Shown here piece by piece: positions 2,675-35,640 of a DNA stretch of 35,642 nt (the first letter of the stretch is position 1; each line of letters opens with the position of its first letter). Below the pieces are notes generated by a model. The model was given only the letters and a program-made list of their open reading frames with translations. It did no database searches and had not been told where the DNA came from. The DNA is taken from IMG/VR virus record IMGVR_UViG_3300046703_000032, positions 1-35,642 of that record. One strand, given 5' to 3'. Position numbers and translations under genes: made by a program. The DNA comes from a virus.

Positions 2675-2785
2675 TTACAACGGCCACCGGCCCCACGGCC
2701 AGTGTTTTCCTATCCACACACCAAGGCGCCATCCGCCGACAATGGCTGCGAACGACAGCACCAAAACGAGAATCGCATCGGTCAT
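2675..2785 (-). CDS. 36-residue single-pass membrane miniprotein
   Basis: A short frame whose ATG overlaps the upstream DUF5131 stop as ATGA (2782-2785) and whose TAA at 2675 falls 18 bases before the next start. The product begins MTDAILVLVLSFAAIVGGW, a clear transmembrane helix, and ends in a Trp-rich basic tail (WIGKHWPWGRWPL). Coupling by overlap, correct spacing to the next gene and a clean helix support a real gene. The function is unknown; small phage membrane proteins often act in superinfection exclusion or host takeover, but nothing here is specific. Confidence 0.7.
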   Translation of the reverse strand: MTDAILVLVLSFAAIVGGWRLGVWIGKHWPWGRWPL

Positions 2786-3522
2786 GACGTTAGTCCCCCC
2801 TTCCTGAATACCATCGCCAATTCCGCTGGCATCTGCCGCACCGGCGGCTGCAACGGCAGACCGGCCTTCTCAAAGAGGGGGATGGCGATGTCCTTACAGG
2901 CTGCTCGAATCCTCTCCTGGGAAATCGCCTTCGGTTTTACTGCCCCTGGGCCACTCTGAGGACCAACGATAACCCACTCTGGCATTAGGTGCCCAGTGCG
3001 ATAGCCGAAGTGCATCTTGCCGCCCACCTCCCCTCCCAGCAGCGGCTCCACGCTTATCATCTTGTGGATGTGCCCCGGCAACTTCGCCAGGGCCTCCCAC
3101 CGCCACCAGTCCGCGCCGGAGGTGATGGACACGCCGAGCCAGGCGTTCGAGGGCCACCACCCGCCGGTCATCGGATGGATGAGGTCAGGGCGCTTAGTGA
3201 GAACCACGAAGCGATGCGCATTATCGTCTCTCATGGCCTGCATAGCCAAAGACCGCCACTTCACTTCCACGCCAGGGCTCCACCAGTCGCTCATGCTGTC
3301 GGCGAATATAACCCGCGGCCTCCCCCTGCCGAGTAGGTCCAGCCGCTCAGGGTGAAAGTGCGGCGTGAAGTCAGAACACGCCTGACAGAACTTCTCTGGA
3401 TTCCCCCGTGCCATCAATCGGGCAACTCGCGGCGCCATGCGCTTCGCATAGCACCAGGGGCACGCATTCAGACAGCCAAAGATCGGATTAATCGTATCGT
3501 CACACCACTCAATACTAGTCAT
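2782..3522 (-). CDS. DUF5131 (phage Gp37/Gp68) family protein
   Basis: 246 residues, a normal length for this family. The N-terminus has the signature IEWCDDTINPIFGC followed by CLNACPWCYA, a C-x3-C-x2-C cluster of the radical-SAM type. Later segments (VIFADSMSDWW, VVLTKRPD, WLGVSIT, SVEPLLG) are the conserved blocks of DUF5131. The family is common in phages and is predicted to bind an iron-sulfur cluster; its reaction is not established to my knowledge. A GGGAGGGAGAG site precedes the ATG. It sits between a 54-residue gene and a membrane miniprotein. Confidence 0.9.
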   Translation of the reverse strand: MTSIEWCDDTINPIFGCLNACPWCYAKRMAPRVARLMARGNPEKFCQACSDFTPHFHPERLDLLGRGRPRVIFADSMSDWWSPGVEVKWRSLAMQAMRDDNAHRFVVLTKRPDLIHPMTGGWWPSNAWLGVSITSGADWWRWEALAKLPGHIHKMISVEPLLGGEVGGKMHFGYRTGHLMPEWVIVGPQSGPGAVKPKAISQERIRAACKDIAIPLFEKAGLPLQPPVRQMPAELAMVFRKGGLTS

Positions 3523-3712: not shown

Positions 3713-5050
3713 TCAATTCCCCCACCAAGGCCGTTTCGCTTCTGGTTCGTCCCATTGCCGCCGGAACCTGCTCGTGGTTAGGTCCAGATACCGCACGAAG
3801 CTGCACCCGCTGGGCCCTACCTGGGACTTCATCACCGAAAATGTCACCTGGGCTTGAACCATCGGATCAAGCGCCCAGGCGTCGCGGTTCAACTGGGTGA
3901 ACGTAGTCGCCGCGCTGCCCCACTCCCCGGCGCCCTTCGCGCTGATTATGCCGCCGTGATCCGCACCGGCCCGGGCACCCTCGTTGCTGATCTGGCTGAA
4001 GCACACCACGCAGACGTTTTCCAGCTTCGCCAGGGCTTGCAGCTTCTCCGCCGCGCTGGCGTTCTTGTCGTACCGCTCACCCTTCTCGGTGGCCGCCACC
4101 AACTGCCCATAGTCCACGATTGCCACGTCCAGATCGTGCGCCACGGCCTGCAAGGTGATCTGGTCCACTCGCCGCTGGCGGTCGAAAAGCCAGAGGTTCG
4201 GCATGCTGGTTAGCATCTCCACCGCCATCCGCCGCGACTCGGCCCTGGGACCGTCTTCCGCCGTGCTCGCCATGAGTAACCGCCAGTCGATCCCGCTCAC
4301 GTGCCCGGCCAGGCGCCAGAACAGATCCCGCTTGCCCACCTCCAAAGAGAAATAGCCGACTCTCGCGCCGGCGCAGGCCGCCGCCCATGCAATGCTGATT
4401 CCGAGGTGAGTCTTGCCCGTGGAGGTGTAGCCGCTGATCACGTGAAAGTCGCCGTGACAGAGACCGCCGTTTGTCCAAGTGTCCAGCTCGTCAATGCCCC
4501 ATGTCCAGGTCTTGCCGCGCCCAGCCAACGCCACATCGGCAACCGAGCGCATGTCCGCCGCCTCGCACTTGGCGTGCGCCGCATGGAGGTCCGCCAGGAG
4601 CGTGTCCGCCATCTGAAGCGCCTTGCTGCCATCGGGAATCGCGTAGGTGGCCCGAACGCCATCCGAGAGAGCCTGAATCAGCTTCCGCCGCGTGGAGGTG
4701 TCGAAGACGATCCGGGCGTAATGCGCCATGTGCAAATAGGTCGGGGTGTCCAGCATCAGTTGCGATATTTGGGCGGGGCTTATAATCCCAGGGCGATTCG
4801 CGTCAAGCCAACTGCATAGAGTCAGCACGTCAACCGGCGTTCCCTGGTCCGCAAGCGCACACATGGCCTCAAATGCCACCCGCCCGCGTTCGCCGTAGAA
4901 GTCATCGGGCTCGATGATGGTCCGCGCCCGGCGCACGTGATCCGGCGAGCCCTCCAGGAGCAGGCTTCCGATTACCGCCCGTTCCGCATCGTCATCATTC
5001 GGGGGCGGCGGGTCCGTCGCGACTGCGCGCTTTTGTCCGTTCGTTCTCAC
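3713..5050 (-). CDS. dnaB: Replicative DNA helicase, DnaB-like
   Basis: 445 residues with a GTG start preceded by GAGGTGAAAC. Residues about 18-165 match the DnaB N-terminal helical domain (AERAVIGSLLLEG, YARIVFDTSTRRKLI). The RecA-like ATPase domain has Walker A GYTSTGKT at 207-214, a Walker B-like strand DVAIVDYGQLV, and CFSQIS. It unwinds the replication fork as a hexamer and travels on the lagging strand. Its start lies 56 bases inside the upstream initiator gene, the usual initiator-helicase order in phages with theta-type replication. Confidence 0.95.
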   Translation of the reverse strand: MRTNGQKRAVATDPPPPNDDDAERAVIGSLLLEGSPDHVRRARTIIEPDDFYGERGRVAFEAMCALADQGTPVDVLTLCSWLDANRPGIISPAQISQLMLDTPTYLHMAHYARIVFDTSTRRKLIQALSDGVRATYAIPDGSKALQMADTLLADLHAAHAKCEAADMRSVADVALAGRGKTWTWGIDELDTWTNGGLCHGDFHVISGYTSTGKTHLGISIAWAAACAGARVGYFSLEVGKRDLFWRLAGHVSGIDWRLLMASTAEDGPRAESRRMAVEMLTSMPNLWLFDRQRRVDQITLQAVAHDLDVAIVDYGQLVAATEKGERYDKNASAAEKLQALAKLENVCVVCFSQISNEGARAGADHGGIISAKGAGEWGSAATTFTQLNRDAWALDPMVQAQVTFSVMKSQVGPSGCSFVRYLDLTTSRFRRQWDEPEAKRPWWGN

Positions 5051-6342: not shown

Positions 6343-6846
6343 TCACGTGCCGATGGTGTTGAGTCGCGCAAACTCGCCATAATGCTCAAGCGCGAAAGCG
6401 TTGTAGGCGAGCGCGGCTTCTTGTTCGTTGTGGGAAGACCCAAGATAGATACACTTCCCATTGAGGTTGCCATTAGCCACCCAGTGTTCTCGTCTGGGTT
6501 CCCAAGTAACACCCTTGAACCGGCTGCGGGTGGGTATCCCACCATAAGTCAGTCTCTTCGGGGTGTTATGATTGTTCTGGGTCTGTGTTGCCACTCGCAT
6601 ATTATGCCGCTGGCAGTCTAGTCCATTACCGTTCTTGTGGTCCACATGAATTCCGGATGGCGCGCCCATGATGAGGCGATGTAAGTAAATGTTGCGCTGA
6701 GGCCGTGTTCCTGGTATGTTGGCCATCGCATAACTCGTACGACGGCGCGGATGGGTAATGCCACACCATGCATAGCCCACTACCACTTCGTAATCCTCAT
6801 CGTCCACAAGCGCCACCAGTCCACCGCTTACCGGAATCTCTTTCAT
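6343..6846 (-). CDS. HNH homing endonuclease with AP2 domain
   Basis: 167 residues from the ATG at 6846, preceded by GGGGGAAAG. The N-terminal part holds the HNH nuclease: NIYLHRLIMGAP, then HVDHKNGNGLDCQRHNMR and TQTQNNHN. The C-terminal part (about residues 105-165) is an AP2/ERF-like DNA-binding domain: SRFKGVTWEPRREHWVA, IYLGSSHNEQEAALAYN, HYGEFARLN. This pairing is typical of free-standing homing endonucleases that copy themselves by double-strand-break repair. It has its own promoter and an elaborate RNA leader (6862-6973). It interrupts no gene: both neighbours look intact. It is best seen as a mobile cassette inside the early operon. Confidence 0.93.
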   Translation of the reverse strand: MKEIPVSGGLVALVDDEDYEVVVGYAWCGITHPRRRTSYAMANIPGTRPQRNIYLHRLIMGAPSGIHVDHKNGNGLDCQRHNMRVATQTQNNHNTPKRLTYGGIPTRSRFKGVTWEPRREHWVANGNLNGKCIYLGSSHNEQEAALAYNAFALEHYGEFARLNTIGT

Positions 6847-6861
6847 CTTTCCCCCATACAC

Positions 6862-6973
6862 GCAAGAACCCGCCATCCTGCTCTTTACCAGTTCTTGTCG
6901 AGGGAACATGGAGCGCACAGAATGGCGGGTTGCTGCGGGTAAAAGAAAAGCGCTCTTGCATGAATCCCTCGAC
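6862..6973 (-). ncRNA. Pseudoknot-like 5' leader of the HNH-AP2 gene
   Basis: Read on the minus strand, the leader has four blocks in the order A, B, A', B'. A (6973-6950) pairs with A' (6916-6897): 9 bp, a 2x1 internal loop, 4 bp, a 3-base bulge and 6 bp. B (6936-6918) pairs with B' (6880-6862): 18 of 19 positions, with one C-C mismatch and two wobbles. The blocks interleave, giving H-type pseudoknot topology with only one base between B and A'. Both wobbles are G-U in the minus-strand RNA and would be A-C on the other strand. Predicted +1 (6973) is the first base of A, and the ribosome binding site follows B' closely. Confidence 0.75.
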
Positions 6974-10524: not shown

Positions 10525-10613
10525 GCTTGGACGACACGACAACGCTATATTGCGGGTTCCTACGGCTCATGCTGCGTGTTGTCCAAGCAACAATCGCGTT
10601 CAGCATGGGCCGT
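10525..10613 (+). ncRNA. Pseudoknot-like 5' leader of the NUMOD4-HNH gene
   Basis: Four blocks in the order A, B, A', B'. A (10525-10538) pairs with A' (10575-10588) over 14 bp with one wobble. B (10562-10574) pairs with B' (10601-10613) over 13 bp with one wobble. No base separates B from A', so the stems can stack coaxially. Both wobbles are G-U in the plus-strand RNA and would be A-C mismatches in the opposite strand. The transcript should start exactly at A, and GGAGGTG follows B' by ten bases. The topology is the same as in the leader at 6862-6973, without sequence similarity. Confidence 0.78.
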
Positions 10614-10634
10614 TTCATTTTGTGGAGGTGTGAC

Positions 10635-11369
10635 ATGGAAACCGAAACGTGGAAACCAATCCCCGGCCATGACGGGTACGAAGCTAGCGACCTTGGGCGG
10701 ATACGGTCACTCTATTATGGAGATAGGGGACATGGCAGGATACGACGGAGGATTCCACGGATACTGTCTTCGCACCCAAACAAACACGGTTATATCAGGG
10801 TTTGCCTTAGCACCCCGACTCGCGATAGCTATTCCGCACATGCGCTTGTTCTCCTAACTTTCGTTGGTCCATGCCCCGCTGGCCTAGAAGCATGTCATTG
10901 GGATGGCAACGGAACAAACAACCGCCTTGATAACTTGCGTTGGGACACCCGACTTCATAATCACGCGGACCAGAAAAGACATGGTACCCGCATCGCTGGA
11001 GAGCATCACCCAAATACTACGCTGACGGAACAGGAAGTGCTGGAGATAAGACGCCTGTGGGCAGCAGGGACAAATAGCCCAACGCTAGCCGCTATGTTTC
11101 ATGTTTCCTACCAAACCACGTGGAGAATCGCCGTTGGGAAGTCCTGGACCGAAACGGCCAGTGGATCGCCCTATCGCCGCCGCCCCTCACTGTCAGACGA
11201 AACGATATTGTCCCTCTACCAACAGTATGAGGCCGGCACTACGGTAAGAGAACTCACCCAACTGTATCACATTCCTGAATCATCGATGTATTCTCTACTC
11301 AACAGGAACCGACCGTTAGGAAAGGCGCGTGGAGAGCGATGGCATAAGTCTCATCTCACGGCCAAGTAA
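10635..11369 (+). CDS. HNH homing endonuclease with NUMOD4 and HTH repeats
   Basis: 244 residues from the ATG at 10635, preceded by GGAGGTGTGAC; the frame stays open upstream, but that part is the structured leader. Residues 5-35 match NUMOD4 (WKPIPGHDGYEASDLGRIRS). The HNH nuclease core follows at about 70-115 (SAHALVLLTFVGP, ACHWDGNGTNNRLDNLRW). Two helix-turn-helix repeats follow (LTEQEVLEIRRLWAAG with WRIAVGKSW; LSDETILSLYQQYEAG with SMYSLLNRN), typical DNA-recognition tails. It is one of only two plus-strand genes found and lies between lysin and holin-like genes without interrupting either. Confidence 0.93.
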   Translation: METETWKPIPGHDGYEASDLGRIRSLYYGDRGHGRIRRRIPRILSSHPNKHGYIRVCLSTPTRDSYSAHALVLLTFVGPCPAGLEACHWDGNGTNNRLDNLRWDTRLHNHADQKRHGTRIAGEHHPNTTLTEQEVLEIRRLWAAGTNSPTLAAMFHVSYQTTWRIAVGKSWTETASGSPYRRRPSLSDETILSLYQQYEAGTTVRELTQLYHIPESSMYSLLNRNRPLGKARGERWHKSHLTAK

Positions 11370-13567: not shown

Positions 13568-13774
13568 TCACACCACCACGATCGCCTGTATAGCGAGTAA
13601 AAGGTCCGTTTCCATTTCTATCTCCCCCTCCCGCACCATCTCCATGGCGCTGTCCGATAGTGTGCTCTCCGCCTCGGCGTCCAGCTTGCGCCGCGTGCCC
13701 AGCGCGGTGATCAGCGCCCCGATGCCAGTCACGAGGCCGGTCACGATGCCAATCATCCCCCAATCAATCGTCAC
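13568..13774 (-). CDS. Small single-pass membrane protein, possible holin
   Basis: 68 residues with a GTG start. One hydrophobic segment (GMIGIVTGLVTGIGALITALG) is followed by a charged helix. It overlaps the end of the upstream membrane-protein gene by 11 bases and precedes the lysin by 22 bases. A holin or pinholin-like role fits size, topology and place. The G-rich stretch upstream may act as a ribosome binding site but is not well spaced, so translation is probably coupled. Confidence 0.6.
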   Translation of the reverse strand: MTIDWGMIGIVTGLVTGIGALITALGTRRKLDAEAESTLSDSAMEMVREGEIEMETDLLLAIQAIVVV

Positions 13775-14096
13775 CTATTTGCCCCCCCCCCGCCGGGTTT
13801 ATGGGTCTCCGCAGGATCGCATCAGCCGCCATGAAGGCCAGCAGTCCCAACATCAGGCCACGCGCCATCACGGGCGGCGGCGCTGGGCCCAACACGTTGA
13901 CAAGCGAGGCCAGATAGGTGGCGCCCACCAGTAGGGAGAACAAGCCCTTCAGCGCCATGTAGGGCCGCAGTGCTTTGGGCCTGCCCCTTAGTGCAAAGCG
14001 GATGTTGGATACCGCCGCCAGGAGCGCCAGCACCATGCACAGCGCCGCCATGGCGTCCATGTAGAACAGATCGAAGAACGGCCTCAATGGCTCCAT
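13764..14096 (-). CDS. Three-pass membrane protein, holin candidate
   Basis: 110 residues with hydrophobic stretches at about 14-32 (AMAALCMVLALLAAVSNIRF), 48-68 (LKGLFSLLVGATYLASLVNV) and 76-93 (ARGLMLGLLAFMAADAIL). GGGAGGCTGAC precedes the ATG. A G10 run codes for the Gly repeat near the C-terminus (NPAGGGQIGDD). Three passes, about 110 residues and the place before the lysin fit a class I holin. Three small membrane proteins flank the lysin, so which one is the true holin is open. Confidence 0.62.
   Translation of the reverse strand: MEPLRPFFDLFYMDAMAALCMVLALLAAVSNIRFALRGRPKALRPYMALKGLFSLLVGATYLASLVNVLGPAPPPVMARGLMLGLLAFMAADAILRRPINPAGGGQIGDD
13782..13791. repeat. C10/G10 homopolymer inside a membrane-protein gene
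   Basis: Ten C on the plus strand, coding Gly-Gly-Gly at the C-terminus of the three-pass membrane protein. Slippage would change only the last few residues before a nearby stop in any frame, so a strong phase-variation effect is unlikely. Confidence 0.85.
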
Positions 14097-14106
14097 GTCA
14101 GCCTCC

Positions 14107-14334
14107 CTACTCCGCCGCCAACATCTCTGCCAGGTCGTCAGGAATGCCCGTCAACAGCCACACCAGCGCCGCCATGACGTTACCCGGAATGGTCAGCTTG
14201 GCATCCTGCGCCAGCAAGTCGCCCCATGCCAGGCCCGGGACGTGGACCGTCACCGGCTCGGCCCGCAACTTCGCCCACTCCGCATCTCGGTCGCGTTCCA
14301 ACTTGGCAACCGCATCGGCCGTGGGCGCGGCCAA
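14107..14334 (-). CDS. Small hypothetical protein, start uncertain
   Basis: 75 residues if it starts at TTG (14334), which has AGGCGGGA before it; an in-frame TAG lies three codons further upstream. The product has a charged N-terminal helix (KLERDRDAEWAKL) and a hydrophobic helix (GNVMAALVWLLTGI). The stop is 10 bases before the holin candidate. The gene may have lost its original 5' end when the plus-strand HNH sequence entered here. Confidence 0.55.
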   Translation of the reverse strand: MAAPTADAVAKLERDRDAEWAKLRAEPVTVHVPGLAWGDLLAQDAKLTIPGNVMAALVWLLTGIPDDLAEMLAAE

Positions 14335-14566
14335 TCCCGCCTACACAGACGGCAGGGCAAGCGAACGTGAACCCTATCGCCCAAACTGGTGGCATCGTGG
14401 CAAGTTACGCAAACAGGTCCTTGAGCGTGACGGCAACAAGTGTACGCTCTGCGACAGTACCAAGCGTTTGCACGCCCACCACGTAGATGGCAACCTGGCA
14501 AACAATGACCTGAGTAACCTACAAACGCTCTGCCCAACTTGCCACTGGAAACTCACTCACCGCTAG
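14321..14566 (+). CDS. Small HNH endonuclease, 5' end uncertain
   Basis: About 81 residues if read from the GTG at 14321; no ATG or ribosome binding site is visible nearby. The body is a complete HNH fold: KQVLERDGNKCTLCDSTKRL, HAHHVDGNLANNDLSNL, TLCPTCHWKLTHR, with two CxxC metal pairs and the HH catalytic motif. Its stop overlaps the convergent tropism-protein stop by three bases. Unlike the other two HNH genes it lacks a recognisable promoter and leader, so it may be a truncated or silent insertion. It sits directly at the 3' end of the variable-region-like sequence. Confidence 0.65.
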   Translation: MGAANPAYTDGRASEREPYRPNWWHRGKLRKQVLERDGNKCTLCDSTKRLHAHHVDGNLANNDLSNLQTLCPTCHWKLTHR

Positions 14567-14676
14567 ACGCTTCTGCACGCACGAAAACCGAGAGGGACGT
14601 ACGCACCAGACGGAGCAAAATACAGATGCAATGCAAAGACACCCGCAGCCGCCCCATTGCTCCAATCACCACCACG
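14563..14676 (-). other. Variable-region-like C-terminal segment
   Basis: 38 codons from RGGDW to the stop. Known retroelement targets of this fold keep RGGxWxNGxxAGVFALxLxxAPSxxxxxxGFR, with Asn codons (AAC/AAT) of the template changed at adenines. Here the x positions are GAT, AGC, GCT, CAT, TAT, TTT, GGT, GCG, TAC, GTC and CCT. Most of these fit AAC/AAT codons altered at one or both adenines. The template repeat and reverse transcriptase were not found, so activity is unproven. Confidence 0.55.
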
Positions 14677-15636
14677 AACCGTGGCCCGCAAAGCTCCAAT
14701 ATCGTAGTAGTATACGTCGTTCCCGTAGGTCGCCACGCCCGTGCCGTCTGTTGATGCCGGAATGGCAAACGCCTTCAGATCGGCGGATGCCTGCATGGTG
14801 ACGATCTTCTGGCCGCTGGTTGAGCCGCTGGTGATGTTTGTGGCGACACTGCGCATGATGACATAGGGGCCAGCCGCTGGCGTTCCGCTGGCCAGCGTGA
14901 GGTCTGTGCCGGTGTTGGAGTTGATTGTGAAGAACGTCCCCGCCGAGTCCATGAGGGACATCGTAGCGAATTCATTCGTCGTCCAGCCCTTGGTGCTATC
15001 CAGTAGGTGGACGGAGGCTACGGAGGTGGACACGCCGTAGGGTGCTGCCTTGTGGTCCGTATTGAGCGACGCCAGTATCCACGGATAGCCCGTGGTTTGC
15101 GCCATCATCAACCCCATGTTCCATTCCCAGACGTTCCCGTTCAGGTCGAAGATTCCGTCGGCGCGGTGGTTGTGCGCCCAGGTGTTCGGCCCGCTGCCAC
15201 ACAGAGAGCGATAGTTCGTCGCGCCCCGCGCAATCGCCGCCCGGTCAATCACCCCTACCTCGGTGGTGTAAGTGGCGTCCGCTGGTGGGTTCGTGTTGCG
15301 GTTGTTGCCATGCGGCATCGTGCCATTGAGCCTGCTCCACTCGGCGGCCACCGCCCATTCGTGACCGGTGCAGAGATGGAAGCCCACTCCCCGGTTGGTG
15401 CACGCCTTCATGGCTCTGTATAGGTTGATCACCGTCCACGGTGGCACCCCAGCCTGGCTGATGCCGGGGATCGCCGCCGGATCCGCGTTGTCGGCCACGT
15501 CGGGGATGTCGTTGTCGCCGGTGGCGTTGGGCTGGCTGCACTGGTACTTGTCCATCCAGAAACCACCCACCGTGAGCGCCCATCCGGCATGATAGAACTT
15601 GGGAATCCAGACCATAGAACTCAGAGCACTTCCCAC
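14563..15636 (-). CDS. C-type-lectin/FGE-fold tropism protein
   Basis: 357 residues from a GTG at 15636 with GGAGGCAAC before it and a 9-base gap to the previous gene. The sequence matches the formylglycine-generating-enzyme/C-type lectin fold used by phage receptor-binding proteins: MVWIPKFYHAG, GFWMDKYQCSQ, FHLCTGHEWAVAAEW, GIFDLNGNVWEW. An inserted strand-rich segment follows (about residues 190-300), and the C-terminus RGGDWSNGAAAGVFAL...LGFRACRSV. That last segment is the form taken by variable regions of diversity-generating retroelements. It is the last gene of the tail-fibre cluster and probably the host-recognition tip. No reverse transcriptase is in the window. Confidence 0.85.
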   Translation of the reverse strand: MGSALSSMVWIPKFYHAGWALTVGGFWMDKYQCSQPNATGDNDIPDVADNADPAAIPGISQAGVPPWTVINLYRAMKACTNRGVGFHLCTGHEWAVAAEWSRLNGTMPHGNNRNTNPPADATYTTEVGVIDRAAIARGATNYRSLCGSGPNTWAHNHRADGIFDLNGNVWEWNMGLMMAQTTGYPWILASLNTDHKAAPYGVSTSVASVHLLDSTKGWTTNEFATMSLMDSAGTFFTINSNTGTDLTLASGTPAAGPYVIMRSVATNITSGSTSGQKIVTMQASADLKAFAIPASTDGTGVATYGNDVYYYDIGALRATVRGGDWSNGAAAGVFALHLYFAPSGAYVPLGFRACRSV

Positions 15637-15644
15637 GTTGCCTC

Positions 15645-16109
15645 CTACGCCAGATTCTTCCTTATCCACTCTAGCGCCGCGCCATACTTGGCCTCGTTTG
15701 CCAACAGTTGTGCGGGTGCTATGTCGGTGACGTCGCTAACCACAGTGGACAACTGGACCAACTCCGTGGCTAGGCCCACGTGCGTATAGTTGGCCAGCAC
15801 TTCAAGCGGTCGGGCTATCAAAAGCGTAAGTTCCCCAGTGTCCGGCGCCAGCTCATATGCCGCCTTCAACAAGATCACCCCATTCGCCTTTAGCACGACG
15901 CTTTTCACGGGCGGGTGACTAAGCCTGCCCTTGCCATTCTCCACATCCACACGTTCGGCTACAACCGGTGTATCCACATTTGCGCGGACCTGTTGTGCCA
16001 ACAGAAGTGCGCTCTGGAGGGTGTCGGCTAGCCGATTAGCTTCTCCTTTGATGCGCTCCTGAGTCTCAAGCAGTTGCCTCATCATGTTGAGAGTCTGTCT
16101 TGTTGCCAT
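15645..16109 (-). CDS. Hypothetical tail-region protein
   Basis: 154 residues. An N-terminal coiled coil (residues 5-45, TLNMMRQLLETQERIKGEAN) is followed by a strand-rich part (KSVVLKANGVILLKAAYE) and a helical C-terminus (LLANEAKYGAALEWIRKNL). AGGAGGACATAGA precedes the ATG. It lies between a tail-fibre protein and the tropism protein, so it may help attach or fold the latter. No family is recognised. Confidence 0.68.
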   Translation of the reverse strand: MATRQTLNMMRQLLETQERIKGEANRLADTLQSALLLAQQVRANVDTPVVAERVDVENGKGRLSHPPVKSVVLKANGVILLKAAYELAPDTGELTLLIARPLEVLANYTHVGLATELVQLSTVVSDVTDIAPAQLLANEAKYGAALEWIRKNLA

Positions 16110-35383: not shown

Positions 35384-35596
35384 TCAGCCAGGAGCCTGTT
35401 TGGATATGAGAGCCACCCGTTCCCAGCACTCCGGGCAGCCGTTTTTCACTGTGACCGTGACCTCTCCATCGCCGATGCGATCCATGAAGCGAATCAGCTT
35501 CCGGCGGCGTCTCTGCCGATGGCCTGCCGCCTGCCGGGGTGGAGGAGTACACCCCGGCTTGTCAGGAGAGAGAGGACGTGAATCGTCTACATCCAT
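35384..35596 (-). CDS. Small basic CxxC protein upstream of the terminator
   Basis: 70 residues. A Pro/Arg-rich N-terminus (CTPPPRQAAGHRQRRRRKLI) is followed by GDGEVTVTVKNGCPECWERV, with one CxxC pair that could bind zinc as a dimer. GGTGGTAGA before the ATG is a weak ribosome binding site. It lies between the right terminal repeat and the strong terminator. By position it might act on late transcription, but no antiterminator family is recognised. Confidence 0.55.
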   Translation of the reverse strand: MDVDDSRPLSPDKPGCTPPPRQAAGHRQRRRRKLIRFMDRIGDGEVTVTVKNGCPECWERVALISKQAPG

Positions 35597-35621
35597 TCTA
35601 CCACCATTATTGCCAAGATGC
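35595..35621. repeat. Terminal direct repeat, right copy
   Basis: This copy matches positions 1-27 at 25 of 27 bases. It covers the start codon region of the small CxxC gene and is followed by GTGGGGCG and the right-hand C tract. Confidence 0.7.
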
Positions 35622-35629
35622 GTGGGGCG

Positions 35630-35640
35630 CCCCCCCCCCC
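35630..35640. repeat. Poly-C tract (C11), right end
   Basis: Eleven C in a row two bases before the end of the window, mirroring the C13 at the left end. The window ending here may reflect difficulty in sequencing or assembly through the tract. Confidence 0.75.

Follow-up and report, generated by a model that had tools for sequence, protein, structure and literature searches.

The window, that is, the whole 35,642-nucleotide stretch of the viral record IMGVR_UViG_3300046703_000032, carries a gene that is best read, with a probability of roughly 70%, as an orphaned and frozen target of a diversity-generating retroelement (DGR). The gene ends in a variable region (VR) and is homologous to targets borne within DGR cassettes, and the reverse transcriptase (RT) and template repeat (TR) are absent from a record that is probably near complete. 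A frozen orphan is favoured because RT, Avd and TR are all absent, because the CTG repeats of related targets are gone, because no template was found, and because relatives show graded losses of the cassette. Against it, ten of ten scored VR codons end in C or T, as in RT-bearing relatives, and the same would be expected from an active system working in trans.

The target protein and its variable region

The target gene (14563-15669, minus strand, with its stop codon at 14563-14565) is an open reading frame (ORF) of 368 amino acids, and its product belongs to the FGE/C-type-lectin, DGR variable-protein family. As aligned to the TR/VR pairs of close relatives, the VR comprises the last 41 codons (14566-14688, minus) and contains the core RGG...GFR, which at 14581-14676 on the same strand codes for RGGDWSNGAAAGVFALHLYFAPSGAYVPLGFR. 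A sequence-only reading of this DNA had taken 14563-14676 as the C-terminal end of a tropism protein with a C-type-lectin/FGE fold; the interval proved exact, and the fold was borne out. In fact, the protein matches Pfam FGE-sulfatase at E 4e-6, a profile of 32 relatives retrieves PDB 5VF4 (TaqVP) at E 7e-71, and the top three Foldseek matches of its AlphaFold model (mean pLDDT 73, pTM 0.79, the VR being among the weaker stretches) are chains of 5VF4, with PvdO and Mtd next. EgtB is also found, together with PvdO, among the PDB matches from profile or Foldseek. By Pfam, profile and Foldseek, the protein has the FGE-type C-lectin fold. Furthermore, it matches phrog_2889, and its C-terminus matches a family annotated as tail protein. 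In reading order, tail genes come before the target gene and a lysozyme-like gene comes after it; family and gene position make it a probable receptor-binding protein.

Ten VR positions are AAY (AAC or AAT) in the templates of relatives, and these positions were scored for codons ending in C or T (NNY). The window VR reads GAT AGC AAT GCT CAT TAT TTT GGT TAC CCT there, which is NNY at ten of ten. With C/T-ending codons at 50% in the window's genes, the chance of this score is about 0.001, and at the target gene's own rate of 0.56 it is about 0.003. The earlier impression that the variable codons look like AAC/AAT changed at adenines agrees with these figures and with the range of 8 to 10 seen in relatives: among the 90 VRs with an RT in the examined stretch, 69 score 10/10, 20 score 9, and one scores 8. 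VRs lacking both RT and TR whose downstream sequence runs to 3 kb or more (n=17, window included) are more scattered: ten score 10, one scores 9, and six (L191, L193, L197, L198, L202 and L168) score 5-8, as expected of decayed relics. The C-terminus of the window protein is a DGR VR with its variable codons at the template-AAY positions, and since it scores with the intact VRs, it is either a VR still in service or an orphan of fairly recent date.

Missing machinery and graded losses among relatives

The absence of a visible RT or template repeat, remarked on from the sequence alone, was sustained by every search of the 35.6-kb record. RVT_1 and a DGR-RT profile built from 30 relatives gave no match, tblastn of RTs and Avd gave nothing below E 0.5 (the Avd of relative L126 reached a best E of 2.2), and neither strand of the window holds a segment matching the VR with mismatches only at template A. 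On these searches, a diverged RT or TR hidden inside the window was rejected. Of a complete cassette, the window lacks the DGR-type RT, Avd and the post-VR recognition element, be it hairpin or CTG repeats.

Immediately behind the target lies an antisense HNH endonuclease coding region (14357-14566, plus; PF01844 above cut-off and HNH families of PHROGs), which sits within the ORF 13970-14566 with an ambiguous start codon and whose stop overlaps the target stop inside CTAG at 14563-14566. In relatives, this place is taken by the CTG motif, avd and TR. Between it and the lysozyme-like gene come three small ORFs on the minus strand (14107-14334, 13764-14096 and 13568-13774); their stretch, 13568-14334, corresponds to the TR and RT space of relatives, and template scan, RT profile and tblastn found no remnant of RT, Avd or TR in it. 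The window holds three HNH-type endonuclease genes, the other two at 6343-6918 (minus) and 10527-11369 (plus). The idea that an HNH gene generally replaces the cassette was rejected, as the ORFs examined after the targets of relatives L127 and L129 contain no HNH; for this reason, and because of the three HNH genes here, no causal link between HNH gene and cassette is claimed.

Many RT-bearing relatives carry short spaced CTG repeats after the VR stop, for example TAATCTGGAATCTGCAATCTG, in the first 70 bases past the stop. In 57 of 89 RT-bearing relatives the VR stop is followed by a GC-rich hairpin, whose loop is often GATA- or GAAA-like and which agrees with the GRNA hairpins published for DGR targets (PMC3240598). 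By the criteria used, none was found in the window's own clade, intact members included, and the hairpin was dropped as a discriminator within it. The CTG repeats, a motif defined only after the relatives had been inspected, are kept in ten readable clade members, including the RT-less L123, L127 and L129, and none follow the window VR stop. Their conservation suggests that they may have a role in target recognition. Across the family, the repeats are widespread past the VR stop, often with the GC-rich hairpin after them, and are possibly an undescribed part of that recognition.

Relatives supplied the templates for comparison. Among the 80 best IMG/VR relatives, 49 targets proved to have a TR of the form RGGNWNNGANAGVFALNLNN.RSNANTNIGFR, lying a few hundred bases further downstream; an RT is present in 31 of 49 records searched, the 49 including the window's own RT-less record. 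Searching for templates that share the window's unusual "AP" motif (NLNNAP) led to the closer relatives L107-L111, and an alignment-based scan widened this clade, also returning the more distant L131 (35%). Target identity between window and clade is about 45-48%. The TR/VR pairs of five clade members differ almost only at template adenines (ten adenine and no other differences in L110, 14 and one in L107), and by alignment the window's variable codons coincide with the positions variable in these pairs. Downstream of the cassette, L126 (15518-16144) and L111 (12213-13097) hold a second, partly shortened target copy; in L126 this copy shows 18 differences from the single TR, all of them at adenines.

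Within the clade, six members (L109, L122, L126, L128, L130 and L132) have an intact target-avd-TR-RT arrangement, and four are broken, each differently. L121 keeps the RT, with the start of avd fused in frame upstream of it (4614-5010), and has lost the TR and the rest of avd. L123 keeps avd and TR, with an HNH (HNH/AP2) ORF, called by its similarity to window 6343-6918, after the TR in the RT's place; no RT is found in its whole 50.7-kb record, and 14 adenines and one further base separate its VR from its TR. L127 retains 13 avd codons before diverging, with no RT in its 72.9-kb record and no TR in the stretch examined, which ends 0.7 kb past the target. In L129 about nine codons of avd remain, and the 8 kb downstream contain neither TR nor RT. 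L124 and L125 were left out of this comparison, as their sequence ends too soon. The window is a fifth broken state, in which everything past the target stop codon is lost. Among terminase relatives of the whole phage (25 loci, the best at 59% identity), none of 17 records searched has an RT or a similar target.

Whether absence from the record means absence from the phage depends on completeness. Bases 1-43 repeat imperfectly at 35595-35637 (25 of the first 27 bases matching), and genes for packaging, head, tail, lysis and replication are all present; from end overlap and gene content, the record is probably nearly the whole genome. Poly-C tracts adjoin the end repeat, and together they suggest a nearly closed circle, or a terminal repeat with assembly errors. 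Elsewhere in the record, a DUF5131 protein is encoded at 2782-3522 (minus), with a weak likeness to the radical SAM mobile pair protein A family. It is unlikely that the phage encodes a DGR RT and TR away from the target in sequence missing from the record: this is a metagenomic contig whose end overlap is short, imperfect and beside poly-C tracts, but in intact relatives TR and RT follow the target at no more than about 2 kb, the same stretch is present here with other genes, and gene set and end overlap point to near completeness.

Templates elsewhere and diversification in trans

The sequence-only reading had offered two fates for the target, diversification in trans or a relic, and had proposed looking for a near-identical template in relatives or host. 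Exact-pattern scanning covered 2.9 million viral contigs and, in one run, 84,980 prokaryote genomes; with three degenerate patterns that miss templates with a few non-adenine differences, and with records very near the window perhaps excluded, it gave no template for the window VR. Four hits to one pattern (L213-L216) were rejected as distant family members, and of 109 TR copies compared with the window VR the closest has 14 non-adenine mismatches.

Elsewhere in the family, several RT-less VRs do match a TR of another locus. L189 and L134 lie on one Paenibacillus sanguinis contig, and the VR of the former differs from the TR of the latter at eight adenines and no other base; the corresponding counts are ten and zero for L203 against L133 in P. 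popilliae, 11 and zero for L144 against L175 on the same contig, and 14 and one for L127 against L126 (the same record as L110) in the same metagenome. Pairs free of non-adenine differences also include L053/L054, L149/L155, L016/L011 and L039/L158; in pairs of the L189/L134 type, the VR has no TR or RT nearby and the TR lies in another locus, several in the same genome or contig. On these matches, such VRs are plausible candidates for diversification in trans. Roux et al. point out that remote targets would escape the approach of their survey (PMC8144416). Around the target, L126 (7886-9179) and L127 (7889-9182), both IMG/VR sequences of metagenome 3300002220, are 95% identical over 1.3 kb; outside it they are dissimilar in the stretches compared, and TR and RT occur in L126 only. 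Of the 28 template-adenine sites in their VRs, 17 differ between the two, compared with 46 of the 1177 sites lying outside the VR (Fisher p 2e-16). Since only the target region is shared and the VRs differ at template adenines, a target appears able to move or be diversified without its cassette, which suggests either gene transfer without the cassette or diversification in trans.

For the window, continued rewriting of the VR in trans, by the RT and template of a host or of a co-resident phage or prophage, is improbable. It would be consistent with the VR/TR matches just described (zero to one non-adenine difference), with the ten of ten NNY codons kept here, and with BPP-1, in which loss of the downstream hairpin impairs homing severely but not completely, leaving residual homing (PMC3240598, PMC12875486). 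Against it, no template matched in the scans, the closest TR copy is 14 non-adenine mismatches away, and the CTG-repeat motif is absent here though kept in other RT-less clade members. It is doubtful, in particular, that a phage devoid of its own machinery has its receptor-binding protein rewritten by the DGR of a host or co-infecting phage without a landing motif. Of the two fates proposed earlier, the relic is favoured by the missing template, the lost motif and the graded losses, and diversification in trans found no support here. FGE-fold proteins unrelated to DGRs exist, and PvdO and EgtB are among the PDB matches. At the chances of about 0.001 or 0.003 given above, however, it is very improbable that the window protein is simply an FGE/C-lectin phage protein with no past as a DGR target and owes its codon pattern to coincidence; this reading is largely refuted by the close relatives' TR/VR pairs, which vary almost only at template adenines and at the same positions as the window's codons.

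A history for the frozen orphan can be proposed from codon pattern and homology. In an ancestor, an Avd-TR-RT cassette resembling that of close relatives would have changed the VR at template adenines; cassette and CTG-repeat motif would then have been lost, or the target acquired without them, and the sequence fits in-place loss and acquisition of the target alone equally well. An HNH endonuclease gene now adjoins the target stop codon, as read from the junction, and rewriting in the window phage has most likely stopped. The intact protein presumably still serves as a receptor-binding tip with one fixed binding surface. Cassette loss was probably fairly recent, because the C/T-ending codon pattern is still complete.

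Significance and comparison with known systems

On the favoured reading, the window shows how a hypermutation cassette is shed while its target survives, and one small clade allows intact cassettes to be compared directly with four differently broken ones and a fully stripped one. Among the RT-less VRs in databases, fresh orphans, old relics and in-trans candidates might be separated by two simple markers, the third-codon-position test and the post-VR motif. If diversification in trans were true here, phages could borrow the hypermutation machinery of a host or a competitor.

The closest solved structure is TaqVP of a Thermus aquaticus prophage (PDB 5VF4, PMC6328139), which shares with the window protein the FGE-type C-lectin fold and a C-terminal VR of roughly 40 residues; TaqVP lies within a DGR cassette, whereas the window gene is without TR, Avd and RT. 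Similarly, the phage tropism protein Mtd of BPP-1 (Foldseek 1yu0-1yu4) is of the FGE/C-lectin type and has its VR at the C-terminus, but in BPP-1 avd-TR-brt is present and a GRNA hairpin follows the VR (PMC3240598, PMC12875486), all of which the window lacks, and the window's clade has CTG repeats in place of a GC-rich hairpin. Treponema denticola isolates without RT and TR keep VR-bearing targets, read by the authors as remnants (PMC4891356); those targets are bacterial lipoproteins, the present one is a phage protein, and both lack core DGR components. Epsilonunovirus crAss-like phages keep a VR-bearing receptor-binding protein, and in some of them the RT is fragmented or has been deleted (PMC11054128); they are a different phage lineage, and the window has additionally lost TR, Avd and the post-VR motif. 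In conclusion, phages in which the receptor protein carries a VR and the RT is broken or deleted are already published. The window is a further example, and it adds the completeness of the loss and intermediate states readable within one clade.
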